DNA of 36,447 nt from a virus: IMG/VR virus record IMGVR_UViG_3300009285_001594, positions 1-36,447 of that record; one strand, 5' to 3'. Position numbers and translations under genes: made by a program. The notes below the pieces were generated by a model. That model made no database searches and was not told the DNA's origin. It saw only the letters and a program-made list of their open reading frames with translations. Positions 2,613-36,447 of the stretch are shown here, piece after piece. The stretch's first letter is position 1, and each line of letters opens with the position of its first letter.

Positions 2613-5267
2613 CTACACCTCATATCCCATCACCTCGATCTCATAAACTCCCATTTTCTTAACCTCATAGACATACAAGAGCTTATCAGTACATCCCAGC
2701 CCATCGGCGCTCGGCCAGTCAGAGTCGGTTAGTGCTATGATGTCGTAGCGCTCCAATGGCAGCGCTCGGAGGTCAGTCCGAAACGTGATGCCTCGTTTGA
2801 GATAAAAACCTGCTCGCAGGAAACCGTAGAGGTTCTCGATGCTGGCCAACGTGCGAATAGCATAGCAATCAAGCTCCAGGCTCATCTTTTGGCGATAGCG
2901 CGCCTGGCTGTCAGCCAACTCGCCATCGCCAGCGCTCGTCTTAGTTTGAGCCGCCAGTGTCAATTGCCCTGTCGGAAGCCGCAAGGCGTCGCTATTCTGG
3001 GCGTATTGCTTCTGCCAATAAAGCCGAATGTCGTTTATCAGTGTCTCAAGCGGCGTCCAGTGATAGCGCTTATCGCTGATGCTGCTATTGTCGAAGAAAT
3101 AAACAACGCTATCCTCTTCCGACGGCGAGACGGTGGCCAGCGAAAACATTGGCACCATCCGCAACCGTCCAACTTCCCACAGAAAAATGCAATGGCATTG
3201 CCAGGCTAATTCCTCCAGGTAGGCCATTAAGTTTTGTCGTTCCGATACCGCAAAGTTAAACACTATCGGCTGTTGCGTCAGCATACTTAAAGCAGTTTCG
3301 AAGCTGTCGCGGTCTAAATATCGTTCGTCTATGATTTTCTTGCCGATATACCAGGCAACATCGGCAGGATTGGTAAGCAGCTTATAAGTTCCGTCAAGCG
3401 AGGTCTCCTTGAGTCCGTCAATATCAAGTAGCAGCGTCCAGTCGTCGTCGTGGTAATACTCCACCTCCAGCCAGGCTTCGTAAAGTTGAAACACCCCATC
3501 AAGTGCCGCCTCGGTGTTGGTAAGCGCAAACCGTATTTCGCCGATAAAATCCGACAACCAGTCCCAGCTTGCGGGCGTTTTTCCAAACTCATTGGTGATG
3601 TCAATTTCGGCGATGGCGGCCACCTGATCGCCGACATCGCTTAAGCCAGTATTGTCTAGCGGGTGTCCGGCGCCTTGCGTCAAGATGTTGGTCAGATAAT
3701 AGGAGGCGCTGGCCGTGATATAGTCGTCCTTCCAGTATTTGACTTTGAGATAAACCGCCTTGATTGCGCCATAATCCCGATAACCGCATAAGCGATACTT
3801 TATCACGTCGAGATCAGCGCCAGCCAGGATGCTGTACTGAAAGAACGTATCAATATCCTGGTCATCGGCGGCATTATGGCCGCCCTGGTTGGCAAAATTC
3901 AGCATGATGCGCTGAGTCTTGGAACGGCTCGGAAACCCTATGCGCGGCGGCTGTTTTGTTACCAGGATATTCTTACGAAGGTCAGTCGTAGTCGGCCCGT
4001 AGTCGTAGTCGTTGGCGTCAAGCTGGCTCAAATAGCCATTGGAAAGCAGCGCATAAGCAGCGTTGATCGTCGCACTGTCAGGCGACCGCCCTTCAGCATT
4101 GGTTATCGCCCAGTATTCAGGGCATAGCTCCAGCGTTACCGTTTCGCCTGGCTCATGGGCCATCATTGCCGTCCCCAGCGACAAGCCCCGATTGACGTGG
4201 CCGAGCGAATGGGTCGCCGTATCGAAATAATGAAAAACAACCAGCTCTTCACCGATTTTCGCAAACATGCAAAGCGAAAATGCTAATCCTGCTGGGTGTT
4301 GGGTCGGGCAACTGAAGTAAAGCCCGCGTTGCAACTCGTCAAAAGCATAGACGCCCGCTCCGAGTGCGGTAATTTTACCAGTGTAAATGAACTCATTGTC
4401 AATGCGGAAGTAGCCTCGACCTGGTGGTGCGCCGCTGGTAATCGTAGCTTCTATGTAAAGTGCGTTCTCATTGAGCACGCCATTGAGCGTCGCATAACAG
4501 CCGCCGACGCCGGGATATAACCCGATAATATCACCTTCCAGCAGGTCAGTTTCCAGCGCCACCGCGATATAGCTATCAGTCGTAGCGTCCAACGTATCAG
4601 CCAAGATTGCCTGCGGTCGCTCGAAAACCTTCGGCGGCGCCCACAATCCGCCATTAGCCAGGCCAATCTCACCGAATACATACGGCCAGCCTTGACCGAT
4701 GGCGTCCTTTGGGCAACTCCAGAGCACCGAGTCCTTGATAATAACTTCATCGGGAAATGGCTGGTTGAAGCGACTGGTGAAGTCTTCAATCGTAAGCTCT
4801 ACCTCATAAGGATTGCCTTGTATCTGGCGAATAGCCCCCCAGAATATCAGCTCGGCAGCGATATTGCCCTGCTGATTGCCAAGATAACCCCACTCGTCAC
4901 CCCAGGGGCCGCCCCAGCCATAGGGCAAATAGACGTCATCGCCATATATCTTGTAAATCTTGGCGTCTTTATTGTGGAGGTCGAATTGAGCGTCGAGCTG
5001 CCAGAACTTGCCAGTCAGCTTAATGGTCATGTCGCCGAGGGCGCTGGTACGAGCGCTGAACTCCAGGTGCTCAGTGATGTCGCCCCACTCCAGCACGTAG
5101 TTGTAGACTTCGATGTCAATGCCGACGATAGTCAGCTCGCGGCTGGTGAGGAAGATGTCTTTTATTGGCTCGCCGCCGACTTCGATTTGCAGGAGATAGG
5201 AGTGCGGCAGGCCGCAGCGAGCGGCGTTCTGGACGGCTTCGAGGATGTGGGCGTCAATGTGTTTCAT
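2613..5267 (-). CDS. Tail hub / baseplate protein
   Basis: This 884-residue protein occupies the tail-hub position, after the tape measure and distal tail protein and before the NlpC/P60 peptidase. The N-terminal part (about 1-180) has the alternating strands expected of a hub domain, with segments such as EPIKDIFLTSRELTIVGI and a Trp/Gly-rich stretch YLPYGWGGPWGDEWGYLG. The middle is beta-rich and the C-terminal 250 residues include a region like gp27/gpL-type hub domains. The layout resembles RcGTA hub proteins of the DUF2163 type. Family assignment rests on position and general pattern, not on a diagnostic motif. The start has no alternative nearby. Confidence 0.7.
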   Translation of the reverse strand: MKHIDAHILEAVQNAARCGLPHSYLLQIEVGGEPIKDIFLTSRELTIVGIDIEVYNYVLEWGDITEHLEFSARTSALGDMTIKLTGKFWQLDAQFDLHNKDAKIYKIYGDDVYLPYGWGGPWGDEWGYLGNQQGNIAAELIFWGAIRQIQGNPYEVELTIEDFTSRFNQPFPDEVIIKDSVLWSCPKDAIGQGWPYVFGEIGLANGGLWAPPKVFERPQAILADTLDATTDSYIAVALETDLLEGDIIGLYPGVGGCYATLNGVLNENALYIEATITSGAPPGRGYFRIDNEFIYTGKITALGAGVYAFDELQRGLYFSCPTQHPAGLAFSLCMFAKIGEELVVFHYFDTATHSLGHVNRGLSLGTAMMAHEPGETVTLELCPEYWAITNAEGRSPDSATINAAYALLSNGYLSQLDANDYDYGPTTTDLRKNILVTKQPPRIGFPSRSKTQRIMLNFANQGGHNAADDQDIDTFFQYSILAGADLDVIKYRLCGYRDYGAIKAVYLKVKYWKDDYITASASYYLTNILTQGAGHPLDNTGLSDVGDQVAAIAEIDITNEFGKTPASWDWLSDFIGEIRFALTNTEAALDGVFQLYEAWLEVEYYHDDDWTLLLDIDGLKETSLDGTYKLLTNPADVAWYIGKKIIDERYLDRDSFETALSMLTQQPIVFNFAVSERQNLMAYLEELAWQCHCIFLWEVGRLRMVPMFSLATVSPSEEDSVVYFFDNSSISDKRYHWTPLETLINDIRLYWQKQYAQNSDALRLPTGQLTLAAQTKTSAGDGELADSQARYRQKMSLELDCYAIRTLASIENLYGFLRAGFYLKRGITFRTDLRALPLERYDIIALTDSDWPSADGLGCTDKLLYVYEVKKMGVYEIEVMGYEV

Positions 5268-15805: not shown

Positions 15806-17158
15806 CTAGGGAATACCAGCATGAATGGCGTTCAAATCACCGTTGGTATCAATAATTATATAGACTCTAAACTTTGAATAATTATTCATACCAATATACG
15901 GCACCCCTGTTGCGCCTGTTGATATATCAATTTCTTTGCTTTTTGCCTCTGTGAATCGAAAATGCGTCGCTGAAATATCTAGATACCCATCGGTTTGATT
16001 ACTGATACTAGCGCTATTCCGGAGTTTAATCTCCTCCCACCAGGATTTCCATGTGAGCGAAAACGTCCGCATTTTATACCAGATCGGGCCATACCGCTCT
16101 ATTTTAATGCCTGCTGGCGTTATCGTTGGCGTCGCTGTTGGAGTTCGAGTTGGCGTTCTGGTTGGTGTTGCGCTCGGAGTGTGAGTCGGGGTCTTGGTCG
16201 GCGTGCTCGAGGGCGTATCCGTCGGTGTATTCGTGGGTGTATCGGTTGGCGTTTCCGTCGGTGTCTCTGTGGGCGTATTCGTGGGAGTATCAGTCGCCGT
16301 ATCGGTCGGAGTAGGCGTGTCAGTCGGCGTTGGCGTACTAGTCGGTGTATGAGTTGGAGTATCTGTGGCTGTGTCGGTTGGCGTAGGCGTATCGGTCGGC
16401 GTGTCAGTGGGTGTCTCTGTTGGCGTGTCAGTCGGTGTTTGAGTAGCCGTATTGGTTGGCGTATTGGTTGGGGTGCTAGTTGGCGTGCTCGTACATGTCC
16501 CAATAGCGTCTTCGGTTATTTCTATCTCGTCAAAATACGCGCTCATGCCCGCGCCATCTTTGGCTGTTGTTATCAATAGGCACACAGTTGAGCTAGTCGG
16601 GTTGAAATTGGTCAGCGCTTTTCTTTGCCACGTCAACATAAACGCTGGTTTTATGTCATCACCACCGATAGCCGCCTCACAGGCGCACTCATTGCAAACT
16701 CCGTTTTTTAACTCGGCCATGATAACTGTGTCGCCAGATATATCGGTCGCGTATACCCATATAAACGCCGTGTAGGTCGTGCCAGGGTTGACGGTGAAAT
16801 AACGAACGCTAGAAACATCATTCCCGCTGGCCGAGTTGTGGCGGAGGCTATATGTCCCGGCATACACCGTGCCAGTATTGTAACTAGCGGTGCCGCCCGT
16901 ACCGCAATGCGACCACAATGACTGCGTGGCCAGCTCAAAACCATCAGAAAACGAATCACACGCCCACGGCGTTGACGTTGCTAATGGCGTACAAGTTGGC
17001 GTATTGGTTGGGGTGCTGGTTGGCGTATTGGTTGGGGTATTGGTAGGCGTGTCGGTTGGCGTTTGGGTAGCTGTTTGCGCATACGCATATCCGCTCATGA
17101 GCATAAAAAATGCTAGTATAAATACGACGCTACCGCTATGGCATGGTGATCGAGACAT
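15806..17158 (-). CDS. Secreted protein with long Thr-Pro repeat linker and C-terminal beta domain
   Basis: The 450-residue protein has a signal peptide ending in AYA after a hydrophobic core ([13 protein letters not shown]). A first Thr-Pro run (about 28-60) is followed by a beta domain with cysteines ([34 protein letters not shown]) that resembles a carbohydrate-binding jelly roll. A second Thr-Pro run of about 110 residues (225-340) leads to a C-terminal domain [30 protein letters not shown]. The C-terminal domain is paralogous to that of the next gene. The start codon overlaps the end of the upstream gene by 23 bp. Probably an exported or surface protein. Confidence 0.75.
16130..16495. 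repeat. Degenerate tandem repeats encoding a Thr-Pro linker
   Basis: About 360 bp of short GTCGG/GTTGG, GTAT, GTC units encode the Thr-Pro-Thr-Asp/Asn linker of the 450-residue protein. Shorter tracts of the same kind occur at about 16985-17075 and 17445-17505, and in the 633-residue gene at about 14635-14705. The repeats are imperfect and in frame, so unit gain or loss can change linker length without a frameshift. Confidence 0.8.
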
Positions 17159-27655: not shown

Positions 27656-27918
27656 GGAACTTGGCTAGTAAATTTCGTTCTGTCGATCTAGTTCCAGCCT
27701 TAGCGCCACTAGGCGGGAAACGATTTTCTGGAACTAGCTGGAACTCTTCCCCTACCCCTATATATGGGACCCTATTTATTTTATTATTTTATTATTTAAT
27801 CTCGACCCCTATATATTGATTCTAGTTCCGTAGTTCCGCGACTATGGGATTCTGTAGGGCTAGCGGTCAGGAACTAGCAAAAAACCTAGTTCCGTCTAGT
27901 TCCGTAGTTCCGCGACTA
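27656..27918. other. Candidate replication origin with iterons and an AT-only unwinding tract
   Basis: The 446-bp stretch 27450-27895 has no supported gene. CTAGTTCC or its complement occurs at 27688-27695, 27730-27737, 27822-27829, 27870-27877, 27886-27893 and 27896-27903, with partial copies at 27656, 27740, 27831 and 27905. A 23-bp repeat occurs at 27822-27844 and 27896-27918; the second copy lies in the last codons of the primase gene. A 28-bp A/T-only tract (27773-27800) is flanked by direct copies of ACCCCTATATAT at 27754-27765 and 27805-27816. Iterons plus a flanked AT tract beside the primase gene are what a phage origin would show. Confidence 0.7.
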
Positions 27919-30751
27919 CGGTTTTGTTCACCCTATAGGCCGATAGTTTAATTTTTGGCAAAAATTCTTTATCCAGCCGGTACTCGCCAAACACTCTGCC
28001 GGCCATCCGTCGGAGCAGCATCCCGGCGCTGATATGTAGCTTCTTGCCCTCTAGGTTTAAATCAAAACAGTCAGGGAAGCTCTCTCGTAATTTCCGATTT
28101 AACGGCTCATCCATCCCGGAGTCGGTAATAACTTCCTTCACTAGCACTTGCCGATCCCCATAGAGGGCATGCCAGGCCGCCAGGAAGCCCTCCCACTCGC
28201 CGACCTCCTGGTCTAGCCGCTCAAATACAAAGCCTTTATTAGCAAGAAATTCCCGCTCGCCGGAAAACGCCAGAATCGCTCCGATTATTTGCGTCCATGA
28301 TTCGTAGCTGGCGAGTGACTTGATTTGGGTTGGTGGTCTATCGGCGTCAAGCCAGCTCTTAATCATGATAATTAGCGCTTTTACGAGGTCCCCGCGATTA
28401 GCTCTAGCCCAGGCAATTAAATCGGCGTGCTTGAAATTTTCTCGCTCCCAGGGATTGGCCGTTTTGGCATCTATTCGTATCCGATAACACCGGCGCGCTA
28501 GAGTATCCATCACCTGGAGGTTATTCCCTGTGGCCGCCCACGTCGCCTCCTGAGCAAAAGATTTGCTTTCGTTGCGGCCCAGTAGTCGATCCGTCCAAAA
28601 TGGATTTGTCAACGCTAGCGCAAGCACGCTTGATTTTAACGGCACTTCGATATTATCGAAAATAAATAAATTCTGGCCCTTGGCCAGTTCGCTAGTTATC
28701 AATTTTCGGAGTTCCTCGTCTCCGACATCCTGGCGGTCGGTGGGCAACGTCAGGAAACCAGCATCGCTCCCAGTGGCTATGATAGAAAACAACTTCGCCA
28801 GCAAACTCTTGCCGCTCCCCATGATGGGCGCATCTATCAGCGCCAGTGGCACCTGTCCATCGAACAGGCAGCGAACGAACGGCGTTAGGAGTAGGCCCAG
28901 ATAATTAGTTTTATCAGCTTCGGTATCGAACCGAAAATCACCTAGTAACTCATCCTCAATGAACTGCCTGGCATAGCTGGCATCCTCGGCAGTTGGAGTA
29001 TCATCTATCGGCGGAAGCGTAAAACCGGGCGCTGGTAGATAATAATAGCGCGTTACTGGGTCGTATCCCTCTTTTGCGATCACAGTGCCGTCAGCTCTGA
29101 TAATTGGCGTTCGAGTTATGAGTTTTAGCGGCGGTAGGTTCTGGTATGATTTTTGTTTCACTAGATTTTTAGCGATTTCTATTGGCGGGTAGGCGGGCGC
29201 AAGTTTGTCCTCACTCTGCCGCAGGCAACAGATAATCCGGCTGATTTCACCCCGCAGACTCTCGGCGTCATAAAAATCTATGCTGGCAAGGCCAGATTCG
29301 TCTTTGATTATGCGTGAGAGCGCGCCCGCGTGGAGGAAAAGTTTTTCCGGTTTATTGGCGGCCATGAGAGCGGCCATGAACTCGTCGCTCAATTCAGCCA
29401 TATCGCGATTTGATACAATTACCGTCGGAAGTGTGTCATTTCGCTTAAATGTATCTTTTGGAGTACGCTCCTTGATCGCTCGTTTTACCTCCCGTGTTCC
29501 CATGCTGATTGCCTGGCCAATCATTTTGGCGATTTCGTCTCTATAGAGAGGGTCCTGAATAGCTGCATTTTTGGCGAGGTCGTCTAAAAGCATTTCTTTC
29601 TCTATGGCGCTATTAAATTGCCCGCTGGCAAGCACAGCCCTGGCCAGCCATATCGGTGCAGCCTGCGCCCGGTCGATCATACGCACGTACTGGGGAGCTC
29701 CGAGCCGACGGACGGTAGTGTCGGGGTCCTGTTTTTTTTCTGGATTATCGCCATCCCGCATCTCGCAGGGCTCTATAACATAAACTCGCTGGTCGGTAGC
29801 GCTTGCCAGACGCTTGATTGCGCTGATGGTATTCTCGTGGCCGGCTCGCCGACCGTTCTTGACCTCGTCGAGGTCAAAATTCAGAATTAGACGTTTCGAT
29901 TTGAGCGCCTTGAGTGTTTGGATTTGTTCATCTGTCAGGTGTCCACCCCCAGTGGCGACAGCACATTTTATGCCCTCTCTATGGAGCGCCAGGCAATCGA
30001 TCATTCCCTCCACGATAAGCAACTGCTCAGTATTTTCGACATACTGGAGCCCAAACGGACTCGTTTTTTTGTGGTCTGCCAGAAAGAAATATTTAGGTTC
30101 TTGACCGGTCAGCGACCGTCCCCACCAGGTCAGGATTTGGCCGTTTCGTGCACGCCAGGCGCCGGTTATGCGGCCCTGCCAAACCCATACGGAACTGTGG
30201 TCGTTGGCCGGGAGCGGGATGAGTCCGTGTTTGCGCAATATTCCCAGCGGTAAATCCGCTTTGTTGGCCAGCTCTGCGATTTCTTTGCAGGTGGAGTAAT
30301 AGCCGAGTTGGAATCGGCGCAAATCATCATTATCGAAACCGCGCTCGTTCATGTATTGCCGAGTCGCATTTGCTTCCGGCTCATCTCGCCACAGCCTGCG
30401 CTGTAAAAGCGAATTGAATCCTTCCAGGGTCTGTTTTTCCGTTACTTCATATTGGATTTGCTCTTGGGTTTTTCGCTCGAGAGTTTTGTATCTGGGCGTG
30501 CCGTAGGCGTCTGCTAGCCAATCAATTGCCTCCGGCAAAGCGAAATGTTTAACGGTGTCCAGCAGGTCGAAAATATCGCCTCCCCGCTGGCAACTGAAAC
30601 AATAGACGCTGCTCGTTGACTCATACACCTGGAGCGATGGGCTATGATCCTCATGGAATGGACACAGAGCCCGCTTGTTTTTTACCTGGTGGCCGAGGCG
30701 CTCTAGGACAGCGGTGATGCTGATTTGGGATTTGATAGAATCTAAATTCAT
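27896..30751 (-). CDS. Fused DNA primase-helicase
   Basis: The 951-residue protein has three parts. A CHC2 zinc finger uses C30, H33, C51 and C54 (CPFHEDHSPSL, YCFSC). A Toprim domain has LLIVEGMIDC at about 246-255 and LILNFDLDE at about 290-298. A P-loop ATPase begins near residue 640 (DAPIMGSGKSLLAKLFS), with a Walker B-like LFIFDNIE near 696 and a sensor-like segment EATWAATGNN; this resembles SF3/D5-type or AAA+ phage helicases. It would unwind and prime phage DNA. AAGGA lies 8 nt before the ATG, and the leader upstream is strongly structured. Length and fusion are typical of P4-alpha-like or phage primase-helicases. Confidence 0.88.
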   Translation of the reverse strand: MNLDSIKSQISITAVLERLGHQVKNKRALCPFHEDHSPSLQVYESTSSVYCFSCQRGGDIFDLLDTVKHFALPEAIDWLADAYGTPRYKTLERKTQEQIQYEVTEKQTLEGFNSLLQRRLWRDEPEANATRQYMNERGFDNDDLRRFQLGYYSTCKEIAELANKADLPLGILRKHGLIPLPANDHSSVWVWQGRITGAWRARNGQILTWWGRSLTGQEPKYFFLADHKKTSPFGLQYVENTEQLLIVEGMIDCLALHREGIKCAVATGGGHLTDEQIQTLKALKSKRLILNFDLDEVKNGRRAGHENTISAIKRLASATDQRVYVIEPCEMRDGDNPEKKQDPDTTVRRLGAPQYVRMIDRAQAAPIWLARAVLASGQFNSAIEKEMLLDDLAKNAAIQDPLYRDEIAKMIGQAISMGTREVKRAIKERTPKDTFKRNDTLPTVIVSNRDMAELSDEFMAALMAANKPEKLFLHAGALSRIIKDESGLASIDFYDAESLRGEISRIICCLRQSEDKLAPAYPPIEIAKNLVKQKSYQNLPPLKLITRTPIIRADGTVIAKEGYDPVTRYYYLPAPGFTLPPIDDTPTAEDASYARQFIEDELLGDFRFDTEADKTNYLGLLLTPFVRCLFDGQVPLALIDAPIMGSGKSLLAKLFSIIATGSDAGFLTLPTDRQDVGDEELRKLITSELAKGQNLFIFDNIEVPLKSSVLALALTNPFWTDRLLGRNESKSFAQEATWAATGNNLQVMDTLARRCYRIRIDAKTANPWERENFKHADLIAWARANRGDLVKALIIMIKSWLDADRPPTQIKSLASYESWTQIIGAILAFSGEREFLANKGFVFERLDQEVGEWEGFLAAWHALYGDRQVLVKEVITDSGMDEPLNRKLRESFPDCFDLNLEGKKLHISAGMLLRRMAGRVFGEYRLDKEFLPKIKLSAYRVNKTVVAELRN

Positions 30752-30898: not shown

Positions 30899-30927
30899 AT
30901 TTTATTATTTTATCAGCGCTTTGTCAA
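30899..30927 (-). promoter_or_regulatory. Strong promoter of the replication operon
   Basis: TTGACA (30927-30922), a 17-bp spacer and TAAAAT (30904-30899) lie on the minus strand. The -35 is inside the last codons of the XRE gene. A GCGCTT/AAGCGC inverted repeat (30916-30921 and 30926-30931) surrounds the -35 and might act as an operator. The predicted start is near 30892. Confidence 0.75.
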
Positions 30928-31212
30928 GCGCACTTCGTTCCGTGCCGGCGCTTCGCCGTCAAGACTTCGCCTCAAAAACCCCTTCACATCGAGAAGGTTT
31001 GTTTTTTCGTGTTGGATCAGCGCCCAGGCCATAGTCACTTCCATCCATAGATGGAAGCAAATTTTAACCAGTTTTTTTTCGTTCGGATAGTCTCGGCCTT
31101 TGAGCATCCGATTAAGGCTTGGCGCCGATATTCCTATTTTTCTGGCCGCTGCTCGCTGGCTCATCCCGCTCTCGGCGAGAGCTTTTTTCAGATATTCGCT
31201 GAAAGTTACCAT
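30913..31212 (-). CDS. XRE-family regulator
   Basis: The 99-residue protein has a helix-turn-helix at about residues 14-40: LAESGMSQRAAARKIGISAPSLNRML, then KGRDYPNEKKLVKICFHL. This is a Cro/C1-like pattern. The short C-terminal part (after residue 60) includes a hydrophobic stretch TMAWALIQH and a basic tail. GGAGGATGAAATAG precedes the ATG. Its stop codon is in the primase promoter, so binding near its own end could switch the replication operon. It is the second of the HTH proteins in this early region. DNA target is not known. Confidence 0.85.
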   Translation of the reverse strand: MVTFSEYLKKALAESGMSQRAAARKIGISAPSLNRMLKGRDYPNEKKLVKICFHLWMEVTMAWALIQHEKTNLLDVKGFLRRSLDGEAPARNEVRLTKR

Positions 31213-36294: not shown

Positions 36295-36447
36295 ATGCTC
36301 GCCCCTAGCGGCGGGCGGGTCACAAAAAAAAAGCCAAAAAAAATTTTTTTGAAAGTTTTTTTTGGAAGGAGAAAAACAACAACCGCCAGCAAGCTTGCAA
36401 AATACTATAAGAAAAAAGGATTGAAAGTTGCTCTTGTACAAACTGAT
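36295..36447 (+). pseudogene. Partial SRP54/Ffh-like G-domain reading frame, probably damaged, cut by the window end
   Basis: This is the only plus-strand frame with family resemblance. From the ATG at 36295 it is open to the window edge (51 codons). It includes KPKKIFLKVFFGRRKTTTA, then SKLAKYYKKKGLKVALVQTD. SRP54/Ffh proteins have KPxKIL-hydrophobic-GxxGxGKTTTA-xKLAxYYKKxG-x-KVxLVxxD at this place. Here the P-loop glycine is replaced (GRRKTTT), and the upstream homopolymer runs suggest indels. The likeness is by eye. It may be host DNA at an integration or assembly junction. Confidence 0.5.

Follow-up and report, generated by a model that had tools for sequence, protein, structure and literature searches.

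Do the repeats crowded into the largest intergenic gap of a tailed phage (27450–27895) form a replication origin, and does the gene beside them encode the protein that acts there? To our knowledge, tailed-phage origins have seldom been mapped. We approached these questions in a 36,447-nt stretch of viral DNA, analysed at its full length (IMG/VR virus record IMGVR_UViG_3300009285_001594; hereafter, the window), which carries terminase, portal, Mu-like major head, tape-measure, and tail genes, with nearly all genes on the minus strand. Our reading, in which we place high confidence, is that positions 27656–27921 are the phage's replication origin and that gene 27896–30751(-) encodes its initiator; two opposed hexamers would load there and the A/T centre would melt. 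Origins of this kind are already known from the rep-ori modules of P4, PICI, and SaPI elements; here, one is found in a tailed phage with structural genes of its own.

A mirrored repeat array beside a primase-helicase gene

The original prediction described an iteron-bearing origin with an A/T-only unwinding element beside the primase-helicase gene, and its sequence particulars were borne out. All six exact copies of the iteron CTAGTTCC in the window, where 0.60 would be expected, fall at 27688–27903 (four on the plus strand and two on the minus), and none of 100 shuffles reached this count. The prediction also hinged on the rarity of the repeat outside 27656–27918, and no copy was found elsewhere in the window. 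When the stretch itself was shuffled 2,000 times with dinucleotides preserved, no 8-mer rose above three copies, against the six observed, and an A/T run of 28 was never reached. Shorter forms are less exclusive—8 of the 12 window copies of the core TAGTTCC, and 10 of the 24 of AGTTCC, lie within the proposed origin—and four near copies join the iteron set (27740 and 27656 on the minus strand, 27831 and 27905 on the plus). The predicted 28-bp A/T-only tract between two identical 12-mers is the longest such run in the window (the next being 18), and the 23-bp repeat said to continue into the primase codons proved to be the core of a 27-bp direct repeat with one mismatch (27821–27847 and 27895–27921), the second copy of which takes in the final codons of the primase gene together with its stop. 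Two features absent from that earlier description are the mirror-image arrangement of the arrays and the 12-mers as a conserved element of the centre (Table 1).

Table 1. Coordinates of the proposed origin, its parts, and the adjacent gene. The sense strand is taken from the primase-helicase gene (-), so that the left half has the higher coordinates.
Feature	Position	Strand	Remarks
Primase-helicase, 951 aa, proposed initiator	27896–30751	-	CHC2 zinc ribbon, DnaG catalytic N, Toprim, SF3 D5/PriRep-like ATPase, C-terminal winged helix (predicted)
Whole proposed origin	27656–27921	-	266 bp; sense strand that of the primase-helicase gene
Left outer array	27887–27911	+	Three TAGTTCC, at 27887, 27897, and 27905; last two within the end of the primase reading frame (final codons and stop)
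Left opposing copy (GGAACTA on +)	27870–27876	-	39 bp start-to-start outside inner pair
Left inner tandem pair	27823–27837	+	TAGTTCC at 27823 and 27831, 8 bp apart
Centre	27747–27822		76 bp, 70% A+T
A/T-only tract, proposed unwinding element	27773–27800		28 bp; longest in window
12-mer ACCCCTATATAT (sense ATATATAGGGGT)	27754–27765	+	Adjoins right inner pair
12-mer ACCCCTATATAT	27805–27816	+	Adjoins left inner pair
Right inner tandem pair	27730–27746	-	GGAACTA at 27730 and GGAACTC at 27740, 10 bp apart; mirrors left pair
Right opposing copy	27689–27695	+	41 bp start-to-start outside inner pair
Right outermost copy	27656–27662	-	GGAACTT, one mismatch

Several other signals were considered in the window. 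GC skew falls steadily with no turn at 27.8 kb and was set aside as uninformative, nearly all genes lying on one strand. A hairpin at 27902–27921 was rejected as a terminator or origin stem: it is on the strand opposite the genes, is not above chance, and its stem is not kept in the close relative described below. The DnaA box consensus TTWTNCACA has a single match in the window, at 740, and none near 27.7 kb, which sets the site apart from DnaA-dependent iteron plasmid origins, and a search for RNA families and tRNAs returned none.

Away from the site, eight copies of ACGCCAAC at 16125–16486 (16 nearby in all) lie within an open reading frame (15806–17158, minus strand) with a weak match to a carbohydrate-binding domain, and form a coding repeat. 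The two contig ends carry similar TCACAAAAAA..GC..AAAAAAATT stretches (1–40 and 36320–36350), perhaps a degraded terminal repeat or an assembly artefact. The last ~100 bases (36350–36447, plus strand) encode a fragment of an SRP54-type GTPase (Pfam PF00448, E 3.8e-5), with homopolymer runs ahead of it, and are likely host sequence or a chimeric contig end.

The proposed initiator

The C-terminal (helicase) half of the 951-aa protein had no match in Pfam, and a profile search of the PDB by sequence gave no meaningful match. Its AlphaFold model (mean pLDDT 83) ends in three helices followed by two strands, a succession that we read as a predicted winged helix. The best solved neighbours of this model in Foldseek were SF3 primase-helicases—AsfvPrimPol, PriRep1 with dsDNA, SaPI5 Rep, NrS-1, and D5.

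Repeat clusters follow the helicase gene in relatives

Conservation in related phages was a further point on which the original prediction could be judged. The sole close relative, a viral contig (L001), encodes a primase-helicase 82% identical to that of the window, and in the region downstream the inner pairs, the opposing copies, the A/T centre, and the TATAGGG elements all remain in place; there, too, the iterons encode the final residues of the protein (AELRN*). A pattern search with GGAACTACGGAACTAG gave three further matches in viral contigs (L002–L004), which were rejected as chance because they are located in unrelated coding sequence.

Profile searches with the helicase half led to about 40 distant loci in archaeal viruses, a Methanothrix genome, and Planctomycetota genomes, the window and its near-duplicates being excluded. 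Of 392 genomes from the phylum of L017 (titled Planctomycetia), 33 carried members of the helicase profile, as did 8 of 200 from the class of L014 (titled Methanothrix), both group names being inferred from the titles. Taking the densest 8-mer cluster of each locus, we found it at -20 to +400 nt relative to where the helicase domain ends in 26 of the 40 (3.6 expected; maximum 15 in 200,000 simulation runs). Among loci with GC below 0.66, the top cluster lay in this interval in 22 of 25, and a second score, which set the post-helicase zone against control zones within the locus, ranked it above all of them in 23 of 27 (1.7 expected). Loci with GC above about 0.66 were mostly without a post-helicase cluster, reflecting either background or true absence of the site. 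No repeat cluster follows the helicase of actinophage phiAsp2 (L007).

These distributions bear on whether the repeats might instead be operators, through which a phage repressor or the primase-helicase controls transcription of the surrounding genes, no origin being involved. Initiator binding sites often autoregulate too, and the window encodes two small HTH proteins (85–438 and 30913–31212). However, it is the 3' end of the helicase gene, and not its promoter, that the site occupies, and the same placement after that gene recurs in genomes from two domains of life. Promoter-like matches do not exceed chance, and neither a 28-bp A/T-only centre nor mirror arrays would be needed by an operator; we regard this explanation as improbable. 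An origin best explains the data: the close relative keeps position, repeats, and centre, and most of the distant helicase relatives of moderate GC do likewise, using repeat words of their own.

In several relatives (L015, L016, L017, L052, L053, L054, and L058), the iterons are read through within the open frame. The helicase frame of these loci extends ~220–600 nt beyond the domain end as a low-complexity linker, in some cases followed by a cysteine-containing tail (for example, CPHT...CRDCG in L016). Separately, one iteron word, GCGGGTAT, is common to L006 and L010 (Methanosarcinales virus) and to L039 and L042 (of the phylum of L017, titled Planctomycetia), despite helicase cores only about 30% identical.

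Spacing and polarity of the repeats

The repeat words themselves vary between loci (GGAACTA, TGCGGGTAT, GGTGACA, GGGACTA, TACTGGGAT, GGGGACGT, and others). Read on the sense strand of the gene, the G-rich word usually points towards the centre from both sides, and this polarity was seen at both ends in 18 of the 25 loci having at least two tandem pairs. Tandem copies are spaced 8–10 bp, and 53–108 bp of centre separate the facing inner arrays; the simple forms have three copies, a centre, and three mirrored copies (L041, L019, L018, and L017). Where a two-copy half-site has an outer neighbour, it stands 39–48 bp out in 16 of 22, and five loci (L014, L048, L039, L042, and L049) have a reversed outer copy near 45 bp followed by copies near 65, 75, and 86 bp. 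With opposing copies at 39 and 41 bp and left outer copies at 56, 66, and 74 bp, the window follows the plan of these distant relatives, not their exact numbers. Elements of the form TATAGGG.TA, similar to the right-hand 12-mer, occupy its place in L001, L011, L014, and L048. Iteron word and winged helix covary significantly among the loci (partial Mantel r 0.17, p 0.015), a relationship kept out of the main evidence because it is weak.

Comparison with known origins

The locus combines several hallmarks of P4/PICI/SaPI rep-ori modules: a DnaG-type zinc ribbon and Toprim fused to an SF3-like ATPase in one 951-aa protein, an origin directly 3' of the helicase gene with repeats beginning inside its final codons, and mirrored arrays flanking a 76-bp centre that contains a 28-bp A/T tract. 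In PICI, a pri-rep-ori segment whose A/T region lies between two sets of iterons supports plasmid replication (PMC6092414), and SaPI Rep binds repeats directly downstream of its own gene via its C-terminal domain, as the SCCmec helicase Cch2 binds repeats downstream of its gene (PMC7581432). PICI and SaPI modules share with the window both the order of initiator helicase then ori and the two iteron sets about an A/T-rich region. These elements are satellites or islands, however, whereas that of the window carries head, tail, portal, and terminase genes of its own, and its helicase half is without a Pfam match. SCCmec Cch2 differs further, having only three iterons and a separate primase.

The alpha protein of satellite phage P4, like that of the window, joins primase and SF3 helicase in one polypeptide; crr lies directly 3' of the alpha gene, and the annotated type 1 repeats are short iterons in both orientations with a half-site similar to that of the window, although the iteron word is different. 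In crr, read along the sense strand of alpha, the two inner copies are 9 bp apart, the opposing copy stands 43 bp outside them, and past the pair lies an A/T-rich tract. In ori1 the pair is spaced 10 bp, the opposing copy again stands at 43, and further copies occur at 65, 76, and 86. These three outer offsets of ori1 are those of the Methanothrix locus L014 (three of four offsets identical), a coincidence shared by 11 of 200,000 random halves, while crr fits the template less well (two of four positions); the template was set after the data were seen, so these counts are a guide only. The halves of P4 are split, ori1 and crr being about 4.5 kb apart, whereas those of the window face each other in one site. 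The window helicase could not be placed in the P4 alpha family by sequence homology (hhalign probability 0.9%), the likeness being at the level of the SF3 fold only; since the two helicases share no detectable sequence similarity, the half-site match would reflect either deep kinship or a shared constraint.

In P4, attP arm repeats are located near crr, and iterons also occur in the arm sites of integrases and in partition sites. We therefore weighed whether the window repeats could be an attachment site, a centromere-like partition site, or a packaging site. Neither an integrase nor a partition protein was found among the window proteins searched (some small ORFs were outside this search), and in relatives the site is located by its place after the helicase gene; we give this alternative almost no credence.

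The archaeal comparison raises another alternative, in which a folded strand, and not the iterons, is recognised. The plasmid pRN1 depends on a stem-loop of 100 nt situated downstream of rep (PMC4234260), and its orf904, like the window protein, is an SF3 primase-helicase with a required site just 3' of its gene. The mirrored arrays of the window could pair with each other, but its strand folds barely better than shuffles (z -1.60), and no even stem forms because the inner pairs are spaced 8 bp on the left and 10 bp on the right. Relatives, moreover, keep tandem iterons and same-side outer copies that would be useless to a single hairpin. The window thus lacks the long even stem-loop of a pRN1-type origin as well as the archaeo-eukaryotic prim-pol domain of orf904, its primase being DnaG-type, and no sequence similarity between the window helicase and pRN1 Rep was detectable. 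A stem-loop origin in the window is, in our judgement, quite unlikely.

In pRN1 itself (L059), we observed that each stem arm (5084–5104 and 5163–5183) holds a pair of TGTCCA words with a 9-bp spacing, the two arms mirroring each other across an A/T-rich centre. From these letters, an iteron reading of the pRN1 origin is possible; the authors read the site as a stem-loop without iterons, and their compensatory mutation favours the stem (PMC4234260), for which reason we take the iteron reading as a lead and not a result. In Bordetella phage BPP-1 (L060, reverse-complemented locus, 4291–4394), the 11-bp word TTGCCTCGTTT forms two mirrored tandem pairs in an intergenic gap about 470–570 nt beyond the stop of the primase gene bbp29, a candidate origin distinct from the stem-loop proposed previously (PMC4234260).

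Proposed mechanism and implications

Returning to an iteron-based origin in the window, SaPI and PICI provide the precedent for its operation (PMC7581432, PMC6092414). The C-terminal winged helix would bind the TAGTTCC iterons, and copies on either side of the centre would position two SF3 helicase hexamers in opposite directions. ATP-driven loading of the hexamers would melt the A/T tract, and the DnaG-type primase half of the same protein would lay the first primers, with two forks departing both ways. The role of the outer copies, ~40 bp beyond, is probably either to wrap or loop the DNA about each hexamer as it assembles or to control copy number.

A family-wide mirrored geometry in an uncatalogued helicase family, together with its match to P4, appears to be new with respect to the open-access literature searched. 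We suggest a broader model, one that we hold with slightly more doubt than conviction: that self-loading SF3 primase-helicases may share one half-origin, comprising a tandem pair, a reversed copy ~45 bp out, and further copies at about 65, 75, and 86 bp. In the phage family studied here, and in its relatives among bacteria and archaea, two of these halves would be opposed across a centre that melts; in P4 they would be separated into crr and ori1, and the stem-loop of pRN1 would be a reduced form. Spacing, not sequence, would be conserved because it fits two opposed hexamers, and some relatives would read the whole origin through as a protein linker. Such a plan would provide a sequence-independent rule for finding origins in a family whose members (phages, archaeal viruses, and mobile elements of bacteria) have a helicase half without a Pfam match; it would also link the two-part origin of P4 with the stem-loop of pRN1, and it predicts the placement of the two SF3 hexamers.
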